Assembly: GCA_022561775.1 (NCBI GenBank)
Contig: JADFQO010000022.1
Location: 1-45,584, forward strand
Reading direction: 5' to 3'
DNA: 45,584 bases
From: Myxococcales bacterium
GTDB lineage: Bacteria > Myxococcota_A > UBA9160 > SMWR01
Program-made: the position numbers and the translations under genes
Shown: positions 16,003 through 45,577 of the stretch, in pieces
How positions within the stretch are numbered: the first letter of the stretch is position 1
Layout: every line of letters begins with the position of its first letter
Notes under the pieces: model-generated
What the model saw: the letters and a program-made list of their open reading frames with translations, nothing else
Database searches by the model: none
Told to the model about the DNA's origin: nothing

Positions 16003-19000
16003 TCATCCCGGATCTGTCTGCGGATCTTGTTCCGAAGTGGGTGATTCTCCGCCTAGTTCCACGACGGGGCCGCCCACTCCGAGGCGATCCGCGCTCATCG
16101 GCCGGCAGAAGTAGAAACCCTGGGCGAAACCACAGCCGAGTTCGATCAAGAGATCCATCTGCTCCCGGGTCTCGACGCCCTCGGCCACGACCTCGAGATG
16201 CAGGCTCTCCGCCATCGAGTTGATGGCGCGCAGCAGAGAAATTCCGCCCTCATGGCCGACAGCACCGTGCACGAATGCACGGTCGATCTTGAGCACATCG
16301 AAGGGATAATTCTGCAGATAGCTCAGAGACGAATAACCGGTGCCAAAATCGTCGATACAGAGTCGAACCCCGAGGTCCTTGATCTCTGCGAAGGTCGTCG
16401 CGACCCGCTCCACATCGTCGAGGAGAACGCGCTCGGTGACCTCGATTTCCAGAAATCCAGCGGGCAGACCCGAACGAACCAGTGCATTCTGGATCGACTT
16501 CACCGCGTCGCCCCGGTCCACCTCACGCGGCGAGAGATTGACCGCGACGCGCAAATCCGGCCAGTCAGCATCGTGCCACTCTTTCACCTGGCGACAGGCC
16601 GTTTCGAGCACCCATGCCCCGATCGGCACGATTATCCCGCTGCGCTCCGCAATCGGAATGAACTCGCCCGGCGAAACCGGGCCCAGCAGCGCATTTTCCC
16701 AGCGAAGGAGTGCTTCCACGCCGACCAGCCGGGCTTCCGGAAGCGCCACGATCGGCTGGTAGTAGACTTCGAACTCGCCGAGCTCGAGCGCTTTCCGAAG
16801 CTGCGTCTCGACCTGGAGCCTCCTGGCCGCGCTTTCGTTCATCTCCTCAGTGAAGAATTCGAGCGAATTGCCACCGCTCTTCTTGCTGCGATACATCGCG
16901 ATGTCCGCGTCGCGCAGCAGGTCCTCGTCGTTATCGGAATCCGTGGGATAGATCGCGATGCCAATGCTCGCGGTCAGAACGACTTCCTCATTGTGTACTT
17001 CCAATGGCTCTGCGACCGCGGCCAGGATCCGCTGCGCAATGCCTTGGGCATCATAAGCATTCTCGATTCCCGGCAGGATCAGCGCGAACTCATCGCCACC
17101 AAGTCTTGCGGCGGTATCTGCGTCTCGAAGGGCCTGGTTGATTCGTTTCGCAATTTGGCGCAGTGCTTCGTCTCCAGCCGCGTGACCGAGAGTGTCGTTG
17201 ATCTTCTTGAATCCGTCGAGATCGATGAACACCAACCCGACAGACGAATGGTCACGCTTGGCTCTGAGCAGCGCCCGTCGCAAACGGTCCCTGAACAGGT
17301 ATCGATTCGGAAGCTTCGTCAACATGTCGTAATTGGCCTGCTGGGCGATGACCTCTTCGGAGTTCTTCCGCTCGGTCATATCGTTGAAGACCATGACGAC
17401 CTGCTCGATGTGAGCCTGATCACCGACCGTACGGCCAACCGAAACCCAGGCGGGAATCCGCCTGCCTTCTTTGTGGCGGATCCAGATCTCGCCCTCCCAC
17501 TTTCCGGCCCGATTCACCTCCTCGATGATGGATCCGAAAAAACCCATCCCGTGCCGATCGACGCTCAACACATCTGCATTTCGACCGACCACTTCGCTGT
17601 GGCTGAAGCCCGTCGTCGCCGAGAATGCGGCATTGACATCGACAATGATTCCGGCGGCATTCGCGATCACGATGGATTCGGTGGCGGTATCGAACACCGC
17701 AGCCGCGCGTCGAAGTGCCTCCTCGGCGCGACGGCGCGCGGTGACGTCACTCGCCGCGCCGAATACGCGAAAAGCATTCCCATCGGCATCGCGCTCCACA
17801 TGCCAGAGAACGCTGTAGTGGCGAAGCTCTCCAGCTGCCGAGAAAGCCCGCAACTCCGCCCCTTCGCTGACAGACGTCCCATCGATCAGCGCGCCCAACG
17901 CGGTGGCGACCCGCCCGCGGTCCGCCGGGTCGATGCTCTCCCTTAACTCTTCGCCAGTCGGGGGGCCCGCCTCGATGTCTCTCCCGTAGATCCTGAAAAG
18001 TTCGTCCGACCACCACCAGGAACCATCTGAGAGATCGAGCTTCCAGCTTCCCATCTGAGCGACTTTCTGAGCTGCGCGTAGATGTTGCTCGCTCTGGCGC
18101 AGCGCTTCTTCGCCCCGTCGGCGCTCGCGGATCTGCTCTTCGAGCTTGCGCAGCATATTCCCGAACTCCCGGCTGATTTCACCGATCTCACCTTCTCGCT
18201 CGGTGTCGAGCGACAGGTTGAGGTCACTCGTCTTGCGGAAGATGCGCAGCTGGAGCGAGAGCACGCGGAGCGGCGCGATGATCGCGCGGTGAAGGGGCAC
18301 CATGATGATGAATACGAGAATTCCACCCTGGAGAACGATCCAAAGCACGCAGAGTCGACCGATGTAGGTCGCCGACTGCGCCATTTCCCGGGGTAGCTTC
18401 GCGCCGATGATGATTGCCGGATTGCCGACCAGATCAGGGAGCAACCGGTAGACGTCGAGCTGATTCATTTCGGAATCGACGATCGTTACCACGGAGTCTC
18501 CATCGCCTCGCCTCAGCGAGGCGCTTACCCCTGCGGGTACATCGGGGTCTGTCGCAAGCCAGAGGCGCAAAGCCAATCCCACCCGCTCCCCGAGTTCACG
18601 CACGAAAGCGGCGCTCAGCGCCTGGCCCATCACGATATGACCGCGAGACGGCCCCTCTCCGAGGCTCGTCAGGATGTTCCTCGAGGCGACGATCACCGGT
18701 CCATCGCGGGTCACCATCACTCCGGCGATCCGGTTTTCCGGAGTGCCTCCCGAAAGAAGCGGGTGCGAGAGATCCCACTGCCCCTGCGGAATCTCTGGAG
18801 CCGTGATCAGCTGGTGCGTTTTGATATCGTGGATCGGGCCGGATACCACGCGTCCGGAGGCGTCCACGACAACGACCCAATTGAGGGCCGAATCAGGCTG
18901 CACATCGGGACTGAAGTTTTCGTCATAGTACTCTGGATCGCCGGATACCACGTACTCATAGGTGGCATCCCAGCTCGAATATTCGAACACCAGGCCATCG

Positions 19001-19179
19001 AGATGAAAGATCTCACGCTCGAGGGCCTCGGCGACCTGCAGCATGCTCTTTTCAGCCGATCTCTGTTCGAAACCTTCAAATGCCGGATCAATCAGATTGC
19101 GCTTGATCGCATAACCAAAGCCGATGTTCGCAATCGTAAAAAGCGCAACGATGAGAGCCGTCTTATGAACCAGTGTCAC
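16003..19179 (-). CDS. Membrane CHASE4-PAS-PAS-GGDEF-EAL c-di-GMP signalling protein (copy 1)
   Basis: This 1058-residue protein starts at GTG 19179 (GAGGA nine bases upstream). Order: a membrane helix (about 6-27), a periplasmic CHASE4-like sensor (to about 265), a second helix, HAMP (about 300-350), two PAS domains (to about 615), GGDEF (about 620-785) and EAL (about 790-1045). The cyclase site is intact (GGDEF) with an RxxD inhibition site (RDAD) five residues before it. The EAL domain keeps EALLRW, the Asn in NLSPREVD, EVTERVLL, DDFGTGYSSL and EGVET, so phosphodiesterase activity is plausible. It probably turns an external signal into c-di-GMP changes. The tandem neighbour is a close paralogue. 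Confidence 0.92.
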   Translation of the reverse strand: MTLVHKTALIVALFTIANIGFGYAIKRNLIDPAFEGFEQRSAEKSMLQVAEALEREIFHLDGLVFEYSSWDATYEYVVSGDPEYYDENFSPDVQPDSALNWVVVVDASGRVVSGPIHDIKTHQLITAPEIPQGQWDLSHPLLSGGTPENRIAGVMVTRDGPVIVASRNILTSLGEGPSRGHIVMGQALSAAFVRELGERVGLALRLWLATDPDVPAGVSASLRRGDGDSVVTIVDSEMNQLDVYRLLPDLVGNPAIIIGAKLPREMAQSATYIGRLCVLWIVLQGGILVFIIMVPLHRAIIAPLRVLSLQLRIFRKTSDLNLSLDTEREGEIGEISREFGNMLRKLEEQIRERRRGEEALRQSEQHLRAAQKVAQMGSWKLDLSDGSWWWSDELFRIYGRDIEAGPPTGEELRESIDPADRGRVATALGALIDGTSVSEGAELRAFSAAGELRHYSVLWHVERDADGNAFRVFGAASDVTARRRAEEALRRAAAVFDTATESIVIANAAGIIVDVNAAFSATTGFSHSEVVGRNADVLSVDRHGMGFFGSIIEEVNRAGKWEGEIWIRHKEGRRIPAWVSVGRTVGDQAHIEQVVMVFNDMTERKNSEEVIAQQANYDMLTKLPNRYLFRDRLRRALLRAKRDHSSVGLVFIDLDGFKKINDTLGHAAGDEALRQIAKRINQALRDADTAARLGGDEFALILPGIENAYDAQGIAQRILAAVAEPLEVHNEEVVLTASIGIAIYPTDSDNDEDLLRDADIAMYRSKKSGGNSLEFFTEEMNESAARRLQVETQLRKALELGEFEVYYQPIVALPEARLVGVEALLRWENALLGPVSPGEFIPIAERSGIIVPIGAWVLETACRQVKEWHDADWPDLRVAVNLSPREVDRGDAVKSIQNALVRSGLPAGFLEIEVTERVLLDDVERVATTFAEIKDLGVRLCIDDFGTGYSSLSYLQNYPFDVLKIDRAFVHGAVGHEGGISLLRAINSMAESLHLEVVAEGVETREQMDLLIELGCGFAQGFYFCRPMSADRLGVGGPVVELGGESPTSEQDPQTDPG

Positions 19180-19245: not shown

Positions 19246-22200
19246 TCAATCATTGGGAACCTTCAGCATCCGAAGCCAACCTTGCGGTTCCTCTTGGACG
19301 CGCGATGGCCCCGCGTCGAGATCGACGATCGGTCCTCCAATCCCGATTCTCGCGGCACTGAGTGGCGCGCAGAAGTAGTAGCCTTGAGCGAAGCCGCAAC
19401 GCAGCTCGCAAAGCAGGCCGAATTGCTCTTCGGTCTCGACTCCCTCTACGACGATTTCGAGATCGAGGCTATCGGCCATCGCGATGATCGCGCGCAGGAG
19501 CGAGACACCCCTCACGTGACGCATCGCGTCCTGAACGAACGCGCGGTCGATCTTGAGCACGTCAAACGGGTAGTTGCGCAGGTAACTCAGCGATGAGTAA
19601 CCCGTTCCGAAATCGTCGATGCAGAGCCGAACCCCGAGTTCCTTGATTTCGCGGAATGCCGATCCCGCCTTCTCCACGTCGTCGAGGAGCACGCGCTCTG
19701 TAACTTCAATCTCCAGAAACTCCGGCGCCAAGCCGCTCCTGCTGAGCGCATTCGATATCGACTTGATCGCGTCACCGCGATCTACCTCTCGCGGAGAGAG
19801 GTTTACGGAGACGCGCAGATCAGACCAGCCAGCCTCCTGCCATTCCTTGATCTGCCGGCACGCGGTTTCCAGCACCCAGGCACCGATGGGGACAATGATG
19901 CCCGTGCCCTCCGCGACGGGTATGAATTCCACGGGTGAGACCACTCCCAATTCTGCGCTTTTCCAGCGCAACAGAGCCTCGAGACCGACCATCCTGCCCT
20001 CAGGAAGCGCGACGATCGGCTGATAATGGACTTCGAACTCTCCCACCTCGAGCGCATGCTGCAGCTGGGATTCCAGCTGGACGCGCCGCGTGGCCCGTTC
20101 GTTCATTTCCGCGGTGAAGAACTCGATCGAATTTCCGCCGCCATTCTTGCTGCGATACATCGCAATGTCCGCATCTCGAAGGAGTTCCTCATCGCTCTCG
20201 GAGTCTGTCGGGAAGATCGCGATTCCAATGCTTGCGGTCGTCAGAACATCCTGTCCCTGCACATTCATCGGAACTGCCACCGCATCGAGAATTCGCTGGG
20301 CGATCGACTCGGCATCGATCACGTCCTGGAGCGTTGGTGCGATTACGGCGAATTCATCTCCGCCAACCCGCGCGGCTGTGTCCACGTTTCGAATACTCTG
20401 GGTAATTCGATCAGCAGTCATTCGGAGGACTTCGTCTCCCGCCGAATGCCCAAGCGTATCGTTGATCTTCTTGAAGTCGTCCAGGTCGATAAAGATCAGC
20501 GCGACACCTCGACCGCTCCGCTCAGCGCGCAACGTCTCCTGGGAAAGTCGCTCGATGAACAACGTGCGATTCGGGATGCCGGTTAGCAGGTCGTAGGTGG
20601 CCTGGCGGGAGATGACTTCTTCGGCGTTCTTCCGCTCCGTCATATCGTTGAAGACCGCAACGATCTGCTCGGTGGACGACTCTCGTCCGAGTGTTCGTCC
20701 GATCGAAGCCCAGGTCGGAATCGCCGCGCCGCCTTTGTGGCGAATCCAGATTTCGCCTTCCCATTTCCCGGACTGCTCGACTTCTGCGGAAATGCTCTGA
20801 TAGAAGTCGAAATCGTGGCGTCCGGAGTTCAGCATTTCCGCTTTCCTCCCGATGACGTCATCGCGGCCGTGCCCCGTGATACTCGAAAATGCAGAGTTGA
20901 CGTCGATGATGTTTCCGCTGGAATCTGCGATCACAATGCCCTCGGTGGCGGTCTCGAAGACCGCGGCGGCACGGCGCAGTGCCTCCTCGGATCTGTAGCG
21001 TTCCGTCACGTCGCTCACGGTTCCGTAGACGCGGAGCGGTCGACTTTCGAGATCTCTCTCGACGTTCCAGAACACGTCGTGATGTTGCAGATCACCGTTC
21101 GCAACGACAAAGCGGGCTTCGATTCCGTTCGAATCTGAATCTTGTTCGATCAGCGCGCGAAACGCCTGCTCCACGCGATCTCGATCGTCCGGGTGGATGC
21201 TCGAGCGGATTTCTTCCAGGCTCGGGGGGCCAGAGGCGGCCTCTCTCCGATGAATCCGAAATAGTTCGTCGGACCACCACCACGACCCGCTCGTCAGGTC
21301 GACTTCCCAGCTCCCGACCTGAGCAACCTGCTGGGCTTCCTGGAGACGCTCTTCACTGTGGCGCAGTGCGTCTTCGCTCTTCCGGCGTTCATCGATATGT
21401 CTGCCGAGCTGGTCGAGCATGCTTCCGAATTCTCGACTGAGTTCGCCGATTTCATCGTTTCGCGCCGTGGACACGTCGACCGTGAGGTCGTTCGTGCTCC
21501 GGATGACTCGGAGTTGGCGGGTCAAAACGCCAAGCGGAGCGATGATCGCGCGATGCAACGGAACCATGATCAGAAACGCGAGGGCCACTCCCTGGATCAG
21601 AAACCACACCAGACTCAGGCGATTGACGTAGGCCGCCCGCTGGGTGATCTCGCGAGGAAGGCTCACGCGGAGGATGAGTGCCGGAGCACCTGTGACGTCC
21701 GTCAATAGCGTATAGACATCGAGGCGTTCGTCATTGGGCCCGGAAATCGAGTGCAATGGGTCGGCGCCATCGCTGAGCAACGCTTCGCGCACCGAAGGAG
21801 GAGCGGATCGATCCGAAAGGGGCCAGGCAGCGAGATCGATACTGGTACGCTCGCCGATACCCTCGACAAACGCCGCGTCAAATCTCCTGCCCATGATGAT
21901 CCGACCGCGTGACGGCCCACCGTCAAGGCTGGTGAGGATATCGCGAGCCGCGACCAGCATCGGGCCGCCACTCGTCCCGATCAGGCCAGCGATCGGTTCG
22001 ATCCTCGTATCGCCGAGAAGGAGCGGATGCGATTTGCTCCATCGCTCCTTAGAAAGTCCCGCGATTTCCAGCGGTTCCCCAGTTTGAACGTCGCGAATCG
22101 GGCCCGAGATCAGCTCTCCAGAAGAGCCGACGACGATCACCAAATTGAGCACGGTTGTCTTGAAGGAAGCGGGGCTGAGATTCGACTTGTAGAAGTCGGG

Positions 22201-22443
22201 ATTGCGAGACTTCGCGAACTCGTAGCCGGCGTCCCAGCTCGCGGTATCGTGGGCGAGGACACCCAGGAGAAACGCCTCGCGCTGGATGGCCTCCAAGGCG
22301 CGCTTCACATTCTTCTCGACCTCTCGCTGCTCGAGGTCGAAGAATTCCGGAGCCACCACGCTGCGATGGATCGAGTATCCGATCGCGACGTTGGCCGTTG
22401 CAAAAAGGGCAACGATCAGAGCGGTCTTCTGCGAAAGCGTCAA
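19246..22443 (-). CDS. Membrane CHASE4-PAS-PAS-GGDEF-EAL c-di-GMP signalling protein (copy 2)
   Basis: Same architecture as the neighbour at 16003-19179 and similar along its whole length. The start is set by that comparison: TTG 22443 begins LTLSQKTALIVALF, lining up with the GTG-initiated MTLVHKTALIVALF of copy 1, and GGAG lies eight bases upstream, giving 1065 residues. GGDEF and EAL signatures are intact (VGGDEFAVI, EALLRWKSAELG, DDFGTGYSSL, EGVETEEQ). The periplasmic domain is the most divergent part, so the two probably answer different signals with the same output. The pair lies 66 bp apart on one strand and arose by tandem duplication. Confidence 0.92.
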   Translation of the reverse strand: MTLSQKTALIVALFATANVAIGYSIHRSVVAPEFFDLEQREVEKNVKRALEAIQREAFLLGVLAHDTASWDAGYEFAKSRNPDFYKSNLSPASFKTTVLNLVIVVGSSGELISGPIRDVQTGEPLEIAGLSKERWSKSHPLLLGDTRIEPIAGLIGTSGGPMLVAARDILTSLDGGPSRGRIIMGRRFDAAFVEGIGERTSIDLAAWPLSDRSAPPSVREALLSDGADPLHSISGPNDERLDVYTLLTDVTGAPALILRVSLPREITQRAAYVNRLSLVWFLIQGVALAFLIMVPLHRAIIAPLGVLTRQLRVIRSTNDLTVDVSTARNDEIGELSREFGSMLDQLGRHIDERRKSEDALRHSEERLQEAQQVAQVGSWEVDLTSGSWWWSDELFRIHRREAASGPPSLEEIRSSIHPDDRDRVEQAFRALIEQDSDSNGIEARFVVANGDLQHHDVFWNVERDLESRPLRVYGTVSDVTERYRSEEALRRAAAVFETATEGIVIADSSGNIIDVNSAFSSITGHGRDDVIGRKAEMLNSGRHDFDFYQSISAEVEQSGKWEGEIWIRHKGGAAIPTWASIGRTLGRESSTEQIVAVFNDMTERKNAEEVISRQATYDLLTGIPNRTLFIERLSQETLRAERSGRGVALIFIDLDDFKKINDTLGHSAGDEVLRMTADRITQSIRNVDTAARVGGDEFAVIAPTLQDVIDAESIAQRILDAVAVPMNVQGQDVLTTASIGIAIFPTDSESDEELLRDADIAMYRSKNGGGNSIEFFTAEMNERATRRVQLESQLQHALEVGEFEVHYQPIVALPEGRMVGLEALLRWKSAELGVVSPVEFIPVAEGTGIIVPIGAWVLETACRQIKEWQEAGWSDLRVSVNLSPREVDRGDAIKSISNALSRSGLAPEFLEIEVTERVLLDDVEKAGSAFREIKELGVRLCIDDFGTGYSSLSYLRNYPFDVLKIDRAFVQDAMRHVRGVSLLRAIIAMADSLDLEIVVEGVETEEQFGLLCELRCGFAQGYYFCAPLSAARIGIGGPIVDLDAGPSRVQEEPQGWLRMLKVPND

Positions 22444-22659
22444 GTGCGCGACTCCAAACGACAGACCACGACACAGCGGTCCGGAGCAGAGCCCAGTCCG
22501 CCAATCTATTGATCGGTTGATTCGAAGTCCGACTTGCATGCGCGGCGCCGATAAACGCGCTTACAGACGGCTGACTTGCCGGTCAGTTGCGCATGAGCTG
22601 CGCGTTTGAGCGGTTGTGCGAGTTTTTGCGGGCCACCGCAGGCGAACATGCCGGCGCGT

Positions 22660-23444: not shown

Positions 23445-24644
23445 ATGAGCGACCTCTCCGTGCCGAGCGCCGTTGTGCAGGTCGGTCAGAAGATGATCGA
23501 AGCCGGACACGCATCCTTTCTGGTCGGGCCTGGACTGCGCGACCTCCTGACCGGCATCCTTCCGTCACACAGTGAACTGTCAACGGACGCGCCACTCAGC
23601 GAGATCCTGGAACTGTTTCCGAACGGAGTCCTGATCGGAAAGCGAAGGGATACCGTGATGATTCCCAGCCAGGCGGGCCCCGTGGACGTGAGCCCATTTC
23701 GCGCGGGCGCGCGCATCGAGAATGACCTCGCTCATCGCGACTTCACGATCAACGCCATCGCCTACGACATCGCCGACGGGAAATGGATCGATCCACACGG
23801 CGGTCGAGCCGATCTCGAAAACGGCCTGATTCGCGCGGTGCACCGCGCACGGGATCGCATCGCTGAAGATCCGATCCGGGCGCTTCGGGGGGTTCGGCTC
23901 GCGGCGACTCGGGGCTGGGAGCTGGAGCAGGAGGTCGAGGCCGCACTCGAGAGCGCCCGAACGGCGCTCACCAAGATCCCGCGCGAGCCCGTTCGTCGCG
24001 AGCTGGTCGCGATCCTGCTCTCGACAGGTGTTGCCCGGGCCCTGGAGCAGCTCGATCGAAGCCGCATTACTTCAGAGCTCGCGCCGGGCGCGACGCCGGG
24101 CTCGGGCGCCGTGGTGGATCGATTGCCTCGCGACCTCGAGTTGCGGCTGGCCGGTTGGCTCCGCGGCGCTCACGTCAGGGCTGTGTTGCAACGCCTGCGG
24201 TTTTCTCGCGCTACGATCGACCGCGTCGAGTTGCTGCTGCGATGCCACCATTCGGATGGCCAGATCAACGCGATGGGTCCGGCCGCTGCCGCTCGGTTCG
24301 CCCGCCGCACCGGAGCTCGCAACCTGGCTGCATTGATTGCGCTTCGAGAAGCCGAGATCGAAACCGTGGGCGATGCGCCCGCCGCAGCTCGAAACGCGCT
24401 GCAAAAGCTACGGGTGTCACTGGCTTCGCTGTGCGACTCCGAGCGGACAGCGAGCGGACGCAACCAACTGGTGATCTCCGGTGCCGACGTGATGGAGTGC
24501 CTCGGCTGCGAGCCAGGACCTCGCGTCGGGCGCGCAATCGAATACCTTGCTGAGCGCACCCGCCTGGACCCGGCCCTCAACTCGCCGGATGCGCTGCGCG
24601 ATCTTCTGCGCGACTGGATCGACAAGGCCGGCGAAACTTCCTGA
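23445..24644 (+). CDS. tRNA nucleotidyltransferase/poly(A) polymerase-like protein with altered active site
   Basis: This 399-residue protein follows the plan of CCA-adding enzymes and bacterial poly(A) polymerases: FLVGPGLRDLLTG, VDVSPFRAG, HRDFTINAIAYDIADG, DPHGGRADLENGLIRAV and EDPIRALRGVRLAATRGW, then a helical RNA-binding half and a C-terminal HD-like remnant. The catalytic metal-binding motif (normally P-x-D-x-D-L-A-T) reads PSHSELST at about residues 39-46, so His and Glu replace the two Asp, and VGGAVRD has become VGPGLRD. The reading frame is long and intact, arguing for a kept but changed function, perhaps RNA binding without nucleotide addition. No clear ribosome site precedes ATG 23445. 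Confidence 0.8.
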   Translation: MSDLSVPSAVVQVGQKMIEAGHASFLVGPGLRDLLTGILPSHSELSTDAPLSEILELFPNGVLIGKRRDTVMIPSQAGPVDVSPFRAGARIENDLAHRDFTINAIAYDIADGKWIDPHGGRADLENGLIRAVHRARDRIAEDPIRALRGVRLAATRGWELEQEVEAALESARTALTKIPREPVRRELVAILLSTGVARALEQLDRSRITSELAPGATPGSGAVVDRLPRDLELRLAGWLRGAHVRAVLQRLRFSRATIDRVELLLRCHHSDGQINAMGPAAAARFARRTGARNLAALIALREAEIETVGDAPAAARNALQKLRVSLASLCDSERTASGRNQLVISGADVMECLGCEPGPRVGRAIEYLAERTRLDPALNSPDALRDLLRDWIDKAGETS

Positions 24645-24667
24645 TCGGCGGAGCCGACGATCTTGGA

Positions 24668-24889
24668 TCAAATGCTCCGGATCTTCGACAGGATCTCATC
24701 GTCCTCTGGAAAACGGCCCGACTCGTGCTTGGAGAAGATCATCTCGCCGTCGACAACGACGTCAAAAATCCCTCCGCCTCCGCAGACGAATTCAGATTCG
24801 ACGCCAATCTCGCTTTTGATGGTGGCTGCCAAACTGGTAGCCTGGGGTAGGTAGTTTCATTGTCCGCAATAGGTGATCGAAATCTTCAC
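24668..24889 (-). CDS. SelW/Rdx-family selenoprotein (in-frame TGA = selenocysteine)
   Basis: The start GTG 24889 has GGAGG eight bases upstream. The frame reads VKISITYCGQ, then TGA (24859-24857), then NYLPQATSLAATIKSE and continues to TGA at 24668, 73 residues in all. With selenocysteine at codon 11 the sequence is a standard Rdx/SelW thioredoxin-fold protein: the CGQU redox motif, EFVCGGGGIFDVVVDG and FSKHESGRFPEDDEI. The family is often CxxU or CxxC and is thought to act in thiol redox chemistry; its substrate is unsettled. A SECIS-like hairpin lies at the correct distance after the TGA. A peroxiredoxin is divergently transcribed 230 bp away. The gene converges with the nucleotidyltransferase-like gene. 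No selA, selB, selC or selD is in this window. Confidence 0.88.
24824..24842 (-). promoter_or_regulatory. Bacterial SECIS element
   Basis: Read on the minus strand, GGCTACCAGTTTGGCAGCC folds into GGCT/AGCC, one A-C mismatch, then CCA/TGG closing the loop GTT. The loop begins with G and starts 23 bases after the TGA codon, which agrees with the published bacterial SECIS pattern (short loop with an early G, roughly 16-37 bases from UGA). Confidence 0.75.
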
Positions 24890-25119
24890 GATGAGATCCT
24901 CCGCCTCCCGCGCGGGTTAGGCGCGCTCGGGGCTTCCTGCGGCTCAGCGCCATTTGCAGGGGATCAGGATAGTCCGCTCCAACGAATCGCGCTCCCCGCG
25001 GGTCCCCGCTCGATCGGGCAGCTGCAACGCCTGATCGTCTTCGCGCTGCTCCCCCGGCCACGGAATTCGTTAAGATGTGGTGTTCGATCGCGGAACCGTT
25101 CACAACAGGAGGATGACGG

Positions 25120-25602
25120 ATGGCCATCTCGGTAGGCGACAAGATTCCCGCCGGAACGCTCAAGATCTCTGCACCCGGCGGCACGAAGGACGTATCGACC
25201 GACGAGCTCTTTGGCGGCAAGAAGGTGGTGCTCTTCGCCGTACCCGGCGCATTCACGCCGACCTGCTCGGCGAAACATCTACCGGGCTTCATTGACAAAG
25301 CCGGCGACATCAAGGCCAAAGGCGTCGACAGTATCGTCTGCCTTGCGGTCAACGACGCATTCGTGATGGACGCATGGGGAAAGGCCCATAACGTGGGTGA
25401 TGCCGTGATGATGGCCGCGGACGGCAACGCGGAGTTCACGCGCGCCCTTGGGCTGGAGTTCGACGCCTCCGATTTCGGAATGGGTGTGCGCTCCCAGCGC
25501 TTCGCGCTGATCGTCGATGATGGCGTAGTGAAGGGCGCCTATGTCGAAGCGCCGATGAAGTTCGAGGTGAGCAGCGCGGAAGCCATCCTCGAGCAGCTCT
25601 AG
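25120..25602 (+). CDS. Prx5-type peroxiredoxin
   Basis: This 160-residue protein starts at ATG 25120 with AGGAGG upstream. It has the Prx5/AhpE-TSA pattern: VVLFAVPGAFTPTCSAKHLP with the peroxidatic Cys and the Thr-x-x-Cys support, VDSIVCLAVNDAFVMDAWG, and the active-site Arg in GVRSQRFALIVDDG. It reduces hydrogen peroxide or organic peroxides; no glutaredoxin domain is fused, so an external thiol donor is needed. There is no signal peptide. The divergent neighbour is a SelW-like selenoprotein, which makes a shared redox role possible but unproven. Confidence 0.93.
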   Translation: MAISVGDKIPAGTLKISAPGGTKDVSTDELFGGKKVVLFAVPGAFTPTCSAKHLPGFIDKAGDIKAKGVDSIVCLAVNDAFVMDAWGKAHNVGDAVMMAADGNAEFTRALGLEFDASDFGMGVRSQRFALIVDDGVVKGAYVEAPMKFEVSSAEAILEQL

Positions 25603-28013: not shown

Positions 28014-29168
28014 TCAACAACAGCCTTTTTGTCCCGGCTTCCGCGTCGCGCGATATCCGGCGCCTTTGGTTTCTCGCGGATCTCGCAACCGCACGCTCTC
28101 GAAGTCGGGCTGTTCTTCCTCGGGCACGGAAACCCGCGGGGGAATCTCCACGAACTCGCCCCCGTAGGGGGCGTCACGCAGGGTTTGGAAAGCCATCGCG
28201 CTGACCGCCGTGCGCTCGCCACGCACGAACCTGTTCCCCCATTCGTCCTCGACCGCTTTCCACGGCCCCCGGTAGAGCAACGCCTGGTTGGCGTCGCGAC
28301 CCGGCCCGACGTCTGCTTTGCGGGCCGTGACGGTGATCGAGCGGAACTCGATTCCCTCCACGACCGCGAAGGGCTCGGTTTCCCATTTGTCGAGCGCGAT
28401 GCTGCGGAAACCTGCCGCTTCGAGGGCGAGCAGAAACTCCAGTTCCTGAAAGGCGCCCGACACACAGCCGCTCCAGAGCTCGGGATCTGCCTTCAGGTCA
28501 TCGGGTACCGGTTCATCGCTCACGATGTCTGAGATCGCGATGCACCCGCCGACCTTGAGGACCCTGAAGATCTCCTCCATGAGCTGGACCCGATCCAACT
28601 CTCGCACGAGATTGAGGACGCAACTCGAAACGACCAGATCCACCGAGGCGTCAGCGATCAGCGTGGACTCGCGCCTGAGCTTCTCACTCGCCTCTTCGAG
28701 TGCTGCGAGCTCCGCGACACCGCGCACGGGGTGCTCGACCAACCAGGAGTCGAGAGCATCCAGATCCAATGCGAGGTCCTGGATGCGAGCGCGGTGAAAC
28801 TCGACATTCGCGTACCCGAGCGCCTCTGCGACCTGGGGCGCAGAGGCGCGAGCGAGGCGCAGCATTTCTTCGTTCAGATCCACGCCGATCACCGCCCCCT
28901 TCGGTCCCGCGATCTGGGCCGCGATGAAGCAGATCTTGCCCGCACCGCTCCCCAGATCGAGAACGACATCGCCCTCGCGGACGAAGCGCGAAGGGTCCCC
29001 ACAGCCGTAGTCGCGCTCGAGGACCTCCTGCGGAATCAGCTTGAGGTACTGCGGGTCGTAGTCGACCGGGCAGCACAGCGCCACTTCTTTTGCGCGTGCC
29101 GCGGCGCTGTATCGCTCGCGGACAGCGCTCTCGGTGTTGGTGTCGGAGGCGCGAGGATCAGATCTCAT
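28014..29168 (-). CDS. ArsM-like class I SAM-dependent methyltransferase
   Basis: The start ATG 29168 has GGAGG seven bases upstream; 384 residues. The N-terminal half is a Rossmann methyltransferase: EGDVVLDLGSGAGKICFIAA (motif I), VIGVDLNEEML (acidic loop), VDLVVSSCVLNLV and LKVGGCIAISDIV. It resembles arsenite methyltransferases, including an early Cys pair (ALCCPVDYD) and YGCGDPSRF. The C-terminal half (EGIEFRSITVTARK...LLYRGPWKAVEDEWG...RDPRETKGAGYRAT) is conserved in a subgroup of such proteins that end, as here, in GCC. Thiol or metalloid chemistry is likely; the true substrate is not determined by sequence. No ars regulator or pump is adjacent. Confidence 0.82.
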   Translation of the reverse strand: MRSDPRASDTNTESAVRERYSAAARAKEVALCCPVDYDPQYLKLIPQEVLERDYGCGDPSRFVREGDVVLDLGSGAGKICFIAAQIAGPKGAVIGVDLNEEMLRLARASAPQVAEALGYANVEFHRARIQDLALDLDALDSWLVEHPVRGVAELAALEEASEKLRRESTLIADASVDLVVSSCVLNLVRELDRVQLMEEIFRVLKVGGCIAISDIVSDEPVPDDLKADPELWSGCVSGAFQELEFLLALEAAGFRSIALDKWETEPFAVVEGIEFRSITVTARKADVGPGRDANQALLYRGPWKAVEDEWGNRFVRGERTAVSAMAFQTLRDAPYGGEFVEIPPRVSVPEEEQPDFESVRLRDPRETKGAGYRATRKPGQKGCC

Positions 29169-29360
29169 ACCGGAACCTCCTGGGAAGCCTGACAACACGA
29201 CGACCGCCAGTTCTCGAACCGCGACCGCGGCGAACGCTCGTCGACGCGCTGGAGGGGAACCGAAATGCAGCACACGCGGGTACCGGCGTCGCTCGGGATG
29301 CTACAGCGCTTCCCGCCTGGCTGCAGCATTGGATCCGCGATCGCTGGAAATCGCGACGCG

Positions 29361-44107: not shown

Positions 44108-44155
44108 TCGATTTCCGATTAGACGGGGGCGCTTCCGGAGCCGCGAAAACCCCCG

Positions 44156-44497
44156 ATGGTGGATTCGAGCGACAGCAGAATGGAAGAGAACACCACACTA
44201 TTTGACGTCGCCGCCGAAAGGCTCGAGACCAGCACCGAGATGGCGCGACTCGCGGCCCGCGGAACGCTTCGCCTCGCGCTGAAGGAGGCGGGGTTGGACA
44301 GCCAGAATCTGACCCTCCCGCAACTTCGGGTGGTTTTCGAGAAGCTGATGCCCAAGGAGCTGGAAACGCGCGGCGTCACGGACGCGGTCGCAACCTGCAA
44401 AACCGTGATGGACGAGATCGCGCGCACCGCGAGCGAGGCCGAACGGGCGGCGGCGATTTCCCCTGACGAGATCTTCAAGCGCCTCGGCGAGAGCTGA
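44156..44497 (+). CDS. Small soluble helical protein, copy A (unknown family)
   Basis: Up to 113 residues; ATG 44156 or Met9 at 44180 (MEENTTLFDVAAERLE) could start it. The body is predicted helical and charged, without signal or membrane segment: TLFDVAAERLE, MARLAARGTLRLALKEAG, TLPQLRVVFEKLMPKELETR, PDEIFKRLGES. It is nearly the same as the protein at 45266-45577, including a 39-bp stretch of identical DNA. I know no family. It lies 18 bp before the seven-helix gene, so it should be in the same operon. Inference: a soluble partner of that membrane protein. Confidence 0.75.
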   Translation: MVDSSDSRMEENTTLFDVAAERLETSTEMARLAARGTLRLALKEAGLDSQNLTLPQLRVVFEKLMPKELETRGVTDAVATCKTVMDEIARTASEAERAAAISPDEIFKRLGES

Positions 44498-45262: not shown

Positions 45263-45265
45263 TCC

Positions 45266-45577
45266 GTGGCGGCCACGCTCTTTGACGTTGCCTCCGAAAG
45301 GCTCGAGGCCGGCGCCGAAATGGAGCGACTCGCGGCCCGCGGAACGCTTCGCCTCGCGCTGAAGCAGGCGGGGTTGGACGCCCAGAATCTGACCATCCCG
45401 CAACTTCGCGCGGTGTTCGAGAAGCTGATGCCCAAGGATCTCGAGGCGCGAGGCGTCAGCGACGCGGAGGCGACCTGTAGAGCCATCATGGCCCAGATCG
45501 CAGCTTCAGCCGACCTGAACGAGATCGCGTCCCCGACCTTGCCCGATGACGTCTTCAAACGTCTCGGCGGGAACTGA
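45266..45577 (+). CDS. Small soluble helical protein, copy B (unknown family)
   Basis: A 103-residue protein starting at GTG 45266, three bases after the stop of the membrane gene, with GGAGGAG inside that gene's end as ribosome site. Same body as copy A: LFDVASERLEAGAEMERLAA, LRLALKQAGLDAQNLTIPQL, FEKLMPKDLEARGVSDAEAT and FKRLGGN. Differences are concentrated in the tail (about residues 75-95), which could set partner choice. It ends seven bases before the window edge, so the operon may continue. Confidence 0.78.
   Translation: MAATLFDVASERLEAGAEMERLAARGTLRLALKQAGLDAQNLTIPQLRAVFEKLMPKDLEARGVSDAEATCRAIMAQIAASADLNEIASPTLPDDVFKRLGGN

Follow-up and report, generated by a model that had tools for sequence, protein, structure and literature searches.

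A predicted SelW-like selenoprotein gene with a Cys-Gly-Gln-Sec motif in a Myxococcales bacterium

According to the available excerpts of the papers cited here, SelW-like selenoproteins with a CxxU motif have been in print since at least 2005 and, of the marine selenoproteins, were some of the most abundant. SelW-like proteins form the most abundant family of the Sargasso Sea set, with 48 genes; a redox function was inferred there from the CxxU motif, and an interaction with glutathione is mentioned (PMC1088965). A table for the GOS data gives 427 Sec forms against 56 Cys forms (PMC2398784), and a survey from 2006 reports that Cys forms are very few or absent in Sec-using organisms (PMC1794560). 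For Epsilonproteobacteria, the excerpt describes SelW genes that were missed by genome annotation (PMC4607533). Most recently, a review from 2026 lists SELENOW-like CxxU proteins as predicted with high confidence (PMC13188914).

Here, we analysed a gene of this kind in a stretch of 45,584 nucleotides from a Myxococcales bacterium, which as a whole we call the window. With the SelW-like bacterial selenoproteins in those excerpts (Sargasso Sea, GOS and the SELENOW-like group of PF10262), the gene shares the Pfam family, the CxxU motif and a downstream small-loop hairpin that holds a G. Only the sequence, a CGQU variant, and the host lineage differ, and we saw no mechanistic difference. We conclude that this is very likely a bacterial SelW-like selenoprotein gene whose internal TGA is read as selenocysteine, with a predicted Cys-Gly-Gln-Sec active site, because this TGA is shared by the close relatives found, most of them have a matching hairpin and the genome has the Sec machinery.

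The gene, its product and its annotation

The features of the gene and of its stored annotation are as follows.

24671 to 24889, minus strand: predicted SelW-like (Rdx family) selenoprotein gene of 73 codons with a GTG start, from Pfam and NCBIfam matches and full-length conservation
24668 to 24670, minus strand: final stop codon TGA of this gene, read from the sequence
24857 to 24859, minus strand: in-frame TGA at residue 11, the predicted selenocysteine codon, in a column conserved in relatives
24866 to 24868, minus strand: codon of Cys8, which forms the CxxU motif with residue 11
24898 to 24902, minus strand: Shine-Dalgarno-like GGAGG, 8 bases 5' of the GTG, read from the sequence
24671 to 24832, minus strand: stored gene call P0003 of 54 amino acids with a TTG start 3' of the TGA, a cut-short annotation

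The translation starts with V (GTG) and KISITYCGQ, reaches the TGA, continues with NYLPQ and ends in KIRSI. A preliminary description of this locus had claimed a 73-codon frame with a ribosome site that is broken only by a TGA at the redox position of an Rdx/SelW protein. This description holds: the GGAGG precedes the GTG, the single interruption is a TGA at the second redox position (C-G-Q-U), and apart from it there is no frame damage.

When Sec was passed as Cys, the protein matched the Pfam family Rdx (PF10262) with an E-value of 4.9e-19 and 68.7 bits (cut-off 22.6). It also scored above the cut-off for the NCBIfam family TIGR02174 (56.4 versus 34.2) and, by one bit, for NF041051, the SelT/SelW/SelH family (seleno)protein SelTWH_Campy (89.0 versus 88); among six relatives, two pass this last cut-off (88.3 and 89.7) and four fall short of it (75.5–86.7). 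An AlphaFold model, with Cys put in place of Sec and 26 aligned sequences, has a mean pLDDT of 96.3. In the model, a strand spans residues 3–8 and a helix residues 14–28, so that Cys8 ends strand 1, residue 11 stands just before helix 1 and the CxxU motif lies between them. Its best PDB matches have TM-scores by query of 0.85–0.93 and are the SelW-related 2fa8, which ranks first (0.93), the SelW-related 2p0g and the SelT/SelW/SelH domain 2obk. The product is thus predicted from the model to be a SelW-like protein of 73 residues with a thioredoxin-like fold. Fold and family are shared with the bacterial Rdx structures 2fa8, 2obk, 2ojl, 2oka and 2p0g, which we take to be Cys-type. The SelW fold is also shared with mammalian SelW and MIEN1 (2npb and 2ljk; identities of 22% and 34%), and in eukaryotes the SECIS element is located in the 3' UTR.

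The stored gene call P0003 is, past its first letter, identical to residues 21–73 of the full frame. Sorting 75 stored homologues with a script pattern, with the letters inspected for about a dozen, gave 71 that start after the TGA, two with W at its place and two with an altered active-site region. The gene had been called unannotatable; gene calling does cut it, as the 54-residue stub and the 71 homologues illustrate, but the word is too strong, as homologues are stored and several of the records already carry names such as 'selT/selW/selH-like putative selenoprotein'. One could take the stored calls at face value and propose that the real gene begins only past the TGA and has a product of 54 residues, with the upstream codons not being translated together with it. 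The start positions of the 71 homologues agree with this proposal; however, such stubs would be the necessary output of any caller that treats TGA as a stop. Furthermore, the codons before the TGA (KISITYC) are as well conserved as those after it, the GGAGG stands at the upstream GTG, and in the stub the fold would lose strand 1 together with its two redox residues. We consider the shorter gene very unlikely and refer in the following to the full frame of 73 codons.

The TGA in relatives and the selenocysteine machinery

A homologue was found in 15 of 17 genomes in the family-level search (own genome included), and the best match has the TGA in all 15 of them; genome G002 lists two TGAs. In the class-level search, 78 of 90 genomes had a match: by hand count, 69 of them have the TGA form (own genome included) and nine have Cys-type matches only, with 12 genomes giving no match. 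Full-length matches of the TGA form scored 64.8–149.3 bits and one TGA fragment at a contig end 48.5 bits; the 22 matches without TGA scored at most 54.1 bits. In G017 there is also a TAG, and the same applies to one Cys-type match in G070.

Beyond the class, we scanned species genomes and found the TGA at the Sec column in 80 of 80 relatives, these being the best 80 of 92. They come mostly from separate assemblies, whose titles are deltaproteobacterial, planctomycete, acidobacterial, gammaproteobacterial, Marinimicrobia and other. The scan was not biased toward TGA, since one of its six search patterns had Cys at the Sec place and the other five did not cover this site. In a gammaproteobacterial relative (L117:4001-4219), TGA occupies the Cys column as well as the Sec column, and the motif reads YUTQU; this single case is possibly a SelW with two Sec residues or a sequence error.

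The preliminary description had named as counterevidence relatives with a stop at this place and nothing conserved beyond it. Such relatives were not what we found, as conservation extends over about 60 codons past the TGA. It had also suggested a comparison with Cys homologues. At the TGA column, 22 Cys loci (TGC or TGT) can indeed be aligned, all of them lower-scoring and of other subtypes. Among the loci that we read, no close Cys orthologue was found; the 22 Cys loci are more distant C-RWL and C-GY paralogues.

These comparisons bear on the explanation that the TGA is a nonsense mutation, a sequencing error or the mark of a decaying pseudogene. A single change can put one stop into a short frame, and the assembly is a draft. 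Yet this explanation is contradicted by the TGA in the same column in the relatives of many phylum labels and in the class genomes, and by the otherwise undamaged frame, which leaves it with a practically negligible probability.

If the TGA is read as selenocysteine, as we predict, selA, selB, selC and selD should occur elsewhere in the genome, as had been proposed. All four were found above their cut-offs in the same assembly, which is a draft of 2.72 Mb in 60 contigs and 77% complete. The tRNA-Sec scored 69.2 bits (cut-off 47) and was called tRNA-SeC with the anticodon tca by ARAGORN. SelA scored 500 (cut-off 268), SelB 280 (cut-off 242) over positions 1–329 of the 581 of the model, and SelD 325 (cut-off 125). 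The SelD gene (G000:C2:142109-143029) has one in-frame TGA, and SelD is thus itself likely a selenoprotein. The tRNA-Sec, SelA, SelB, SelD and the SelW-like gene are located on five different contigs. Among 14 named control genomes, the cut-offs were passed by tRNA-Sec in five, SelB in two, SelA in one and SelD in two.

Across the class, SelA was found in 84 of 90 genomes: 68 of the 69 that carry the TGA form have it, as do 16 of the 21 that lack this form (hand tally; Fisher p 0.0023, which is only indicative for related genomes). The sole genome with the TGA form and without a SelA match is G084 (85% complete).

A different decoding, in which TGA encodes tryptophan or some other standard amino acid, either genome-wide or by suppression, was also considered. 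Two stored homologues (P0012 and P0034) have W at the column, as one would expect if the caller had translated TGA as Trp. Against this decoding, TGA acts as a normal stop at other places in the window, for example in a methyltransferase gene, the tRNA-Sec, SelA, SelB and SelD are present, and a hairpin with an invariant loop G is kept downstream of the TGA. We thus regard it as exceedingly unlikely and return to selenocysteine as the predicted residue.

The hairpin downstream of the TGA

Two further features lie within the frame, where +1 denotes the base right after the TGA.

24824 to 24842, minus strand: predicted bacterial SECIS hairpin at +15 to +33, with seven pairs, one mismatch and a 3-base loop
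24832 to 24834, minus strand: apical loop GUU at +23 to +25, whose initial G occupies the second position of an AGT serine codon

In this hairpin, +15 to +18 pair with +30 to +33 and, after an A/C mismatch, +20 to +22 pair with +26 to +28. The preliminary description had proposed a hairpin with a 3-base loop starting with G, which is correct, and had let it begin 23 bases past the TGA; it is the loop that starts at +23, and the hairpin starts at +15.

The hairpin is the minimum-energy fold of +1 to +40 (−8.6 kcal/mol). When the TGA and the following 45 bases are folded, six of its pairs have probabilities of 0.93–0.975 and the seventh 0.64. In four longer single segments of 61–81 bases, other folds win, with z-scores from −0.43 to −2.15; such folds by themselves would not reveal the hairpin, and the evidence against chance comes from the comparison of relatives. 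According to the available excerpt, the published bSECIS model has a loop of 3–9 nt with G in the first two loop positions, an upper stem of 4–16 bp, a UGA-to-loop distance of 16–37 nt and a minimum free energy of at most −7.5 kcal/mol (PMC13188914). The hairpin fits this model in its loop (GUU), stem (seven pairs, four plus three around the mismatch) and spacing (22 nt from UGA to loop). Its energy is borderline with respect to the limit in the excerpt, with −7.1 kcal/mol for the bare 19-mer, just short of it, and −8.6 kcal/mol for +1 to +40. An Rfam search of the whole window at curated thresholds gave no match, and a search of 24600–25000 at loose thresholds gave two weak matches, neither to a SECIS family.

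To compare the hairpin among relatives, we read 172 loci (L022–L193), of which L120–L193 were picked from class matches with and without TGA. They comprise 150 TGA loci and the 22 loci with TGC or TGT. Some records are repeats of one assembly in two collections, and the TGA loci yield 129 different sequences downstream of the TGA. The fixed hairpin has a negative energy in 128 of these 129 rows, with a median of −8.4 kcal/mol, and the RNAalifold consensus contains the inner five pairs only.

The loop base +23 is G in all 129 distinct TGA sequences. The codon that contains it (+22 to +24) is AGT in 108 rows, GGT in 16 and AGG in five, so that serine is always encoded by AGT here (108 of 108). 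Elsewhere in the same frames, AGT accounts for 23 of 407 Ser codons (about 6%), and in 12 ORFs of the window for 38 of 397.

The pair +18/+30, which joins two third-codon positions, is standard in 129 of 129 sequences, compared with a mean of 65.9% and a maximum of 75.2% in shuffles. It is formed by six types of pair: CG in 93 sequences, GC in 14, TA in eight, GT in six, TG in five and AT in three. For +15/+33, 109 of the 129 sequences keep the pair (shuffle maximum 79.1%), and for +21/+27 all 129 do so (shuffle maximum 97.7%). The remaining pairs, +16/+32 (118 of 129), +17/+31 (128), +20/+28 (128) and +22/+26 (129), do not exceed the shuffles because one of their sides hardly varies. Thus, of the seven pairs, +18/+30 and +15/+33 clearly exceed the shuffles and +21/+27 does so slightly, with shuffles that ignore relatedness.

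In the 22 Cys loci, most of the pairs fail: they are kept in six (+16/+32), three (+17/+31), 10 (+18/+30), 10 (+20/+28), 11 (+21/+27), seven (+22/+26) and 18 (+15/+33) cases, and +23 is G in 16, mostly via the Trp codon TGG. These loci are an imperfect control for the hairpin, since they belong to the distant C-RWL and C-GY paralogues. Overall, the sequence comparison supports the predicted SECIS hairpin, above all through compensatory changes at one pair.

One might go further and suppose that in this clade the protein sequence is dictated by the RNA. Eight residues past Sec, only Ser, Gly or Arg would then be possible, since the codon there has to be (A/G)G(T/G) for the SECIS loop to form, and close Cys orthologues would be absent as the clade cannot leave selenium. 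We offer this notion of a Sec-only SelW clade tentatively, as a possibility that we are inclined to doubt.

Neighbouring genes, proposed function and significance

We searched for partner genes at 118 loci, with flanks of up to 1.5–4 kb that were in part cut by contig ends, and found no conserved operon partner of the SelW-like gene among them. The window has a divergent peroxiredoxin gene at 25120–25602, which we found elsewhere in just one genome, of the same genus (L037). At L041 and L042, a membrane-protein-like ORF, presumably Bax-inhibitor-like, lies between an amidase-like gene and the SelW gene, at the place that the peroxiredoxin has in the window. The convergent gene beside the SelW gene looks like a CCA-adding nucleotidyltransferase and has matches in 12 of the 118 loci, a count that includes the window's own record and repeated ones. 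The available excerpts report a neighbourhood of peroxiredoxin and SelW from metagenomes (PMC2398784, PMC13188914); as a conserved feature it was not seen here, given the single occurrence beyond the window among the 118 loci.

The window was also screened by codon usage for other genes with an in-frame TGA. The length filter left 327 candidates, of which 25 were listed and six viewed by eye; these six looked like parts of neighbouring genes or readings in the wrong frame, or were otherwise unconvincing, in a screen that is weak, as the SelW gene itself fell outside its 25 listed candidates. An ArsM-like methyltransferase gene at 28014–29273 on the minus strand (NF040538, 346.7 bits, below the cut-off of 500) has weak matches to NCBIfam selenoprotein models. 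We rejected it as a selenoprotein candidate, as its strong matches have no internal stop (one 20-bit match has a TGA). Its product ends in Cys-Cys before the TGA stop in the window and in six relatives, and in this control (these seven of ten loci) conservation right after the stop was not evident by eye. Elsewhere in the window, two similar ORFs on the plus strand (44123–44494 and 45263–45574, with TLFDVA.ERLE...) stand on either side of a membrane-protein-like ORF, an arrangement that resembles a duplication. Two adjacent long ORFs on the minus strand (16003–19179 and 19246–22539) are similar to each other, have the look of GGDEF/EAL/PAS signalling proteins and are probably a tandem duplication. 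A plasmid search gave no match.

By its family, the SelW-like protein is likely a small CxxU thiol/selenol oxidoreductase. In the mechanism that we propose, SelB with Sec-tRNA and GTP would bind the hairpin, whose loop opens with the invariant G after a spacer of 22 bases from the TGA, and this complex would deliver Sec at the internal TGA codon. The product would be a soluble enzyme that cycles between CxxU in its reduced state and a form with an internal Se-S bridge, with glutathione or thioredoxin as candidate electron donors.

Most stored records of this SelW-like clade are truncated, and a well-supported full-length gene is now added to a known selenoprotein family. The finding is sound but ordinary and leaves the picture of selenium biology unchanged. 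The class-wide set (69 of 90 genomes) gives a clean comparative view of a SECIS element with its loop fixed within a codon, and it can be used to study how the requirements of the SECIS restrict the protein sequence.
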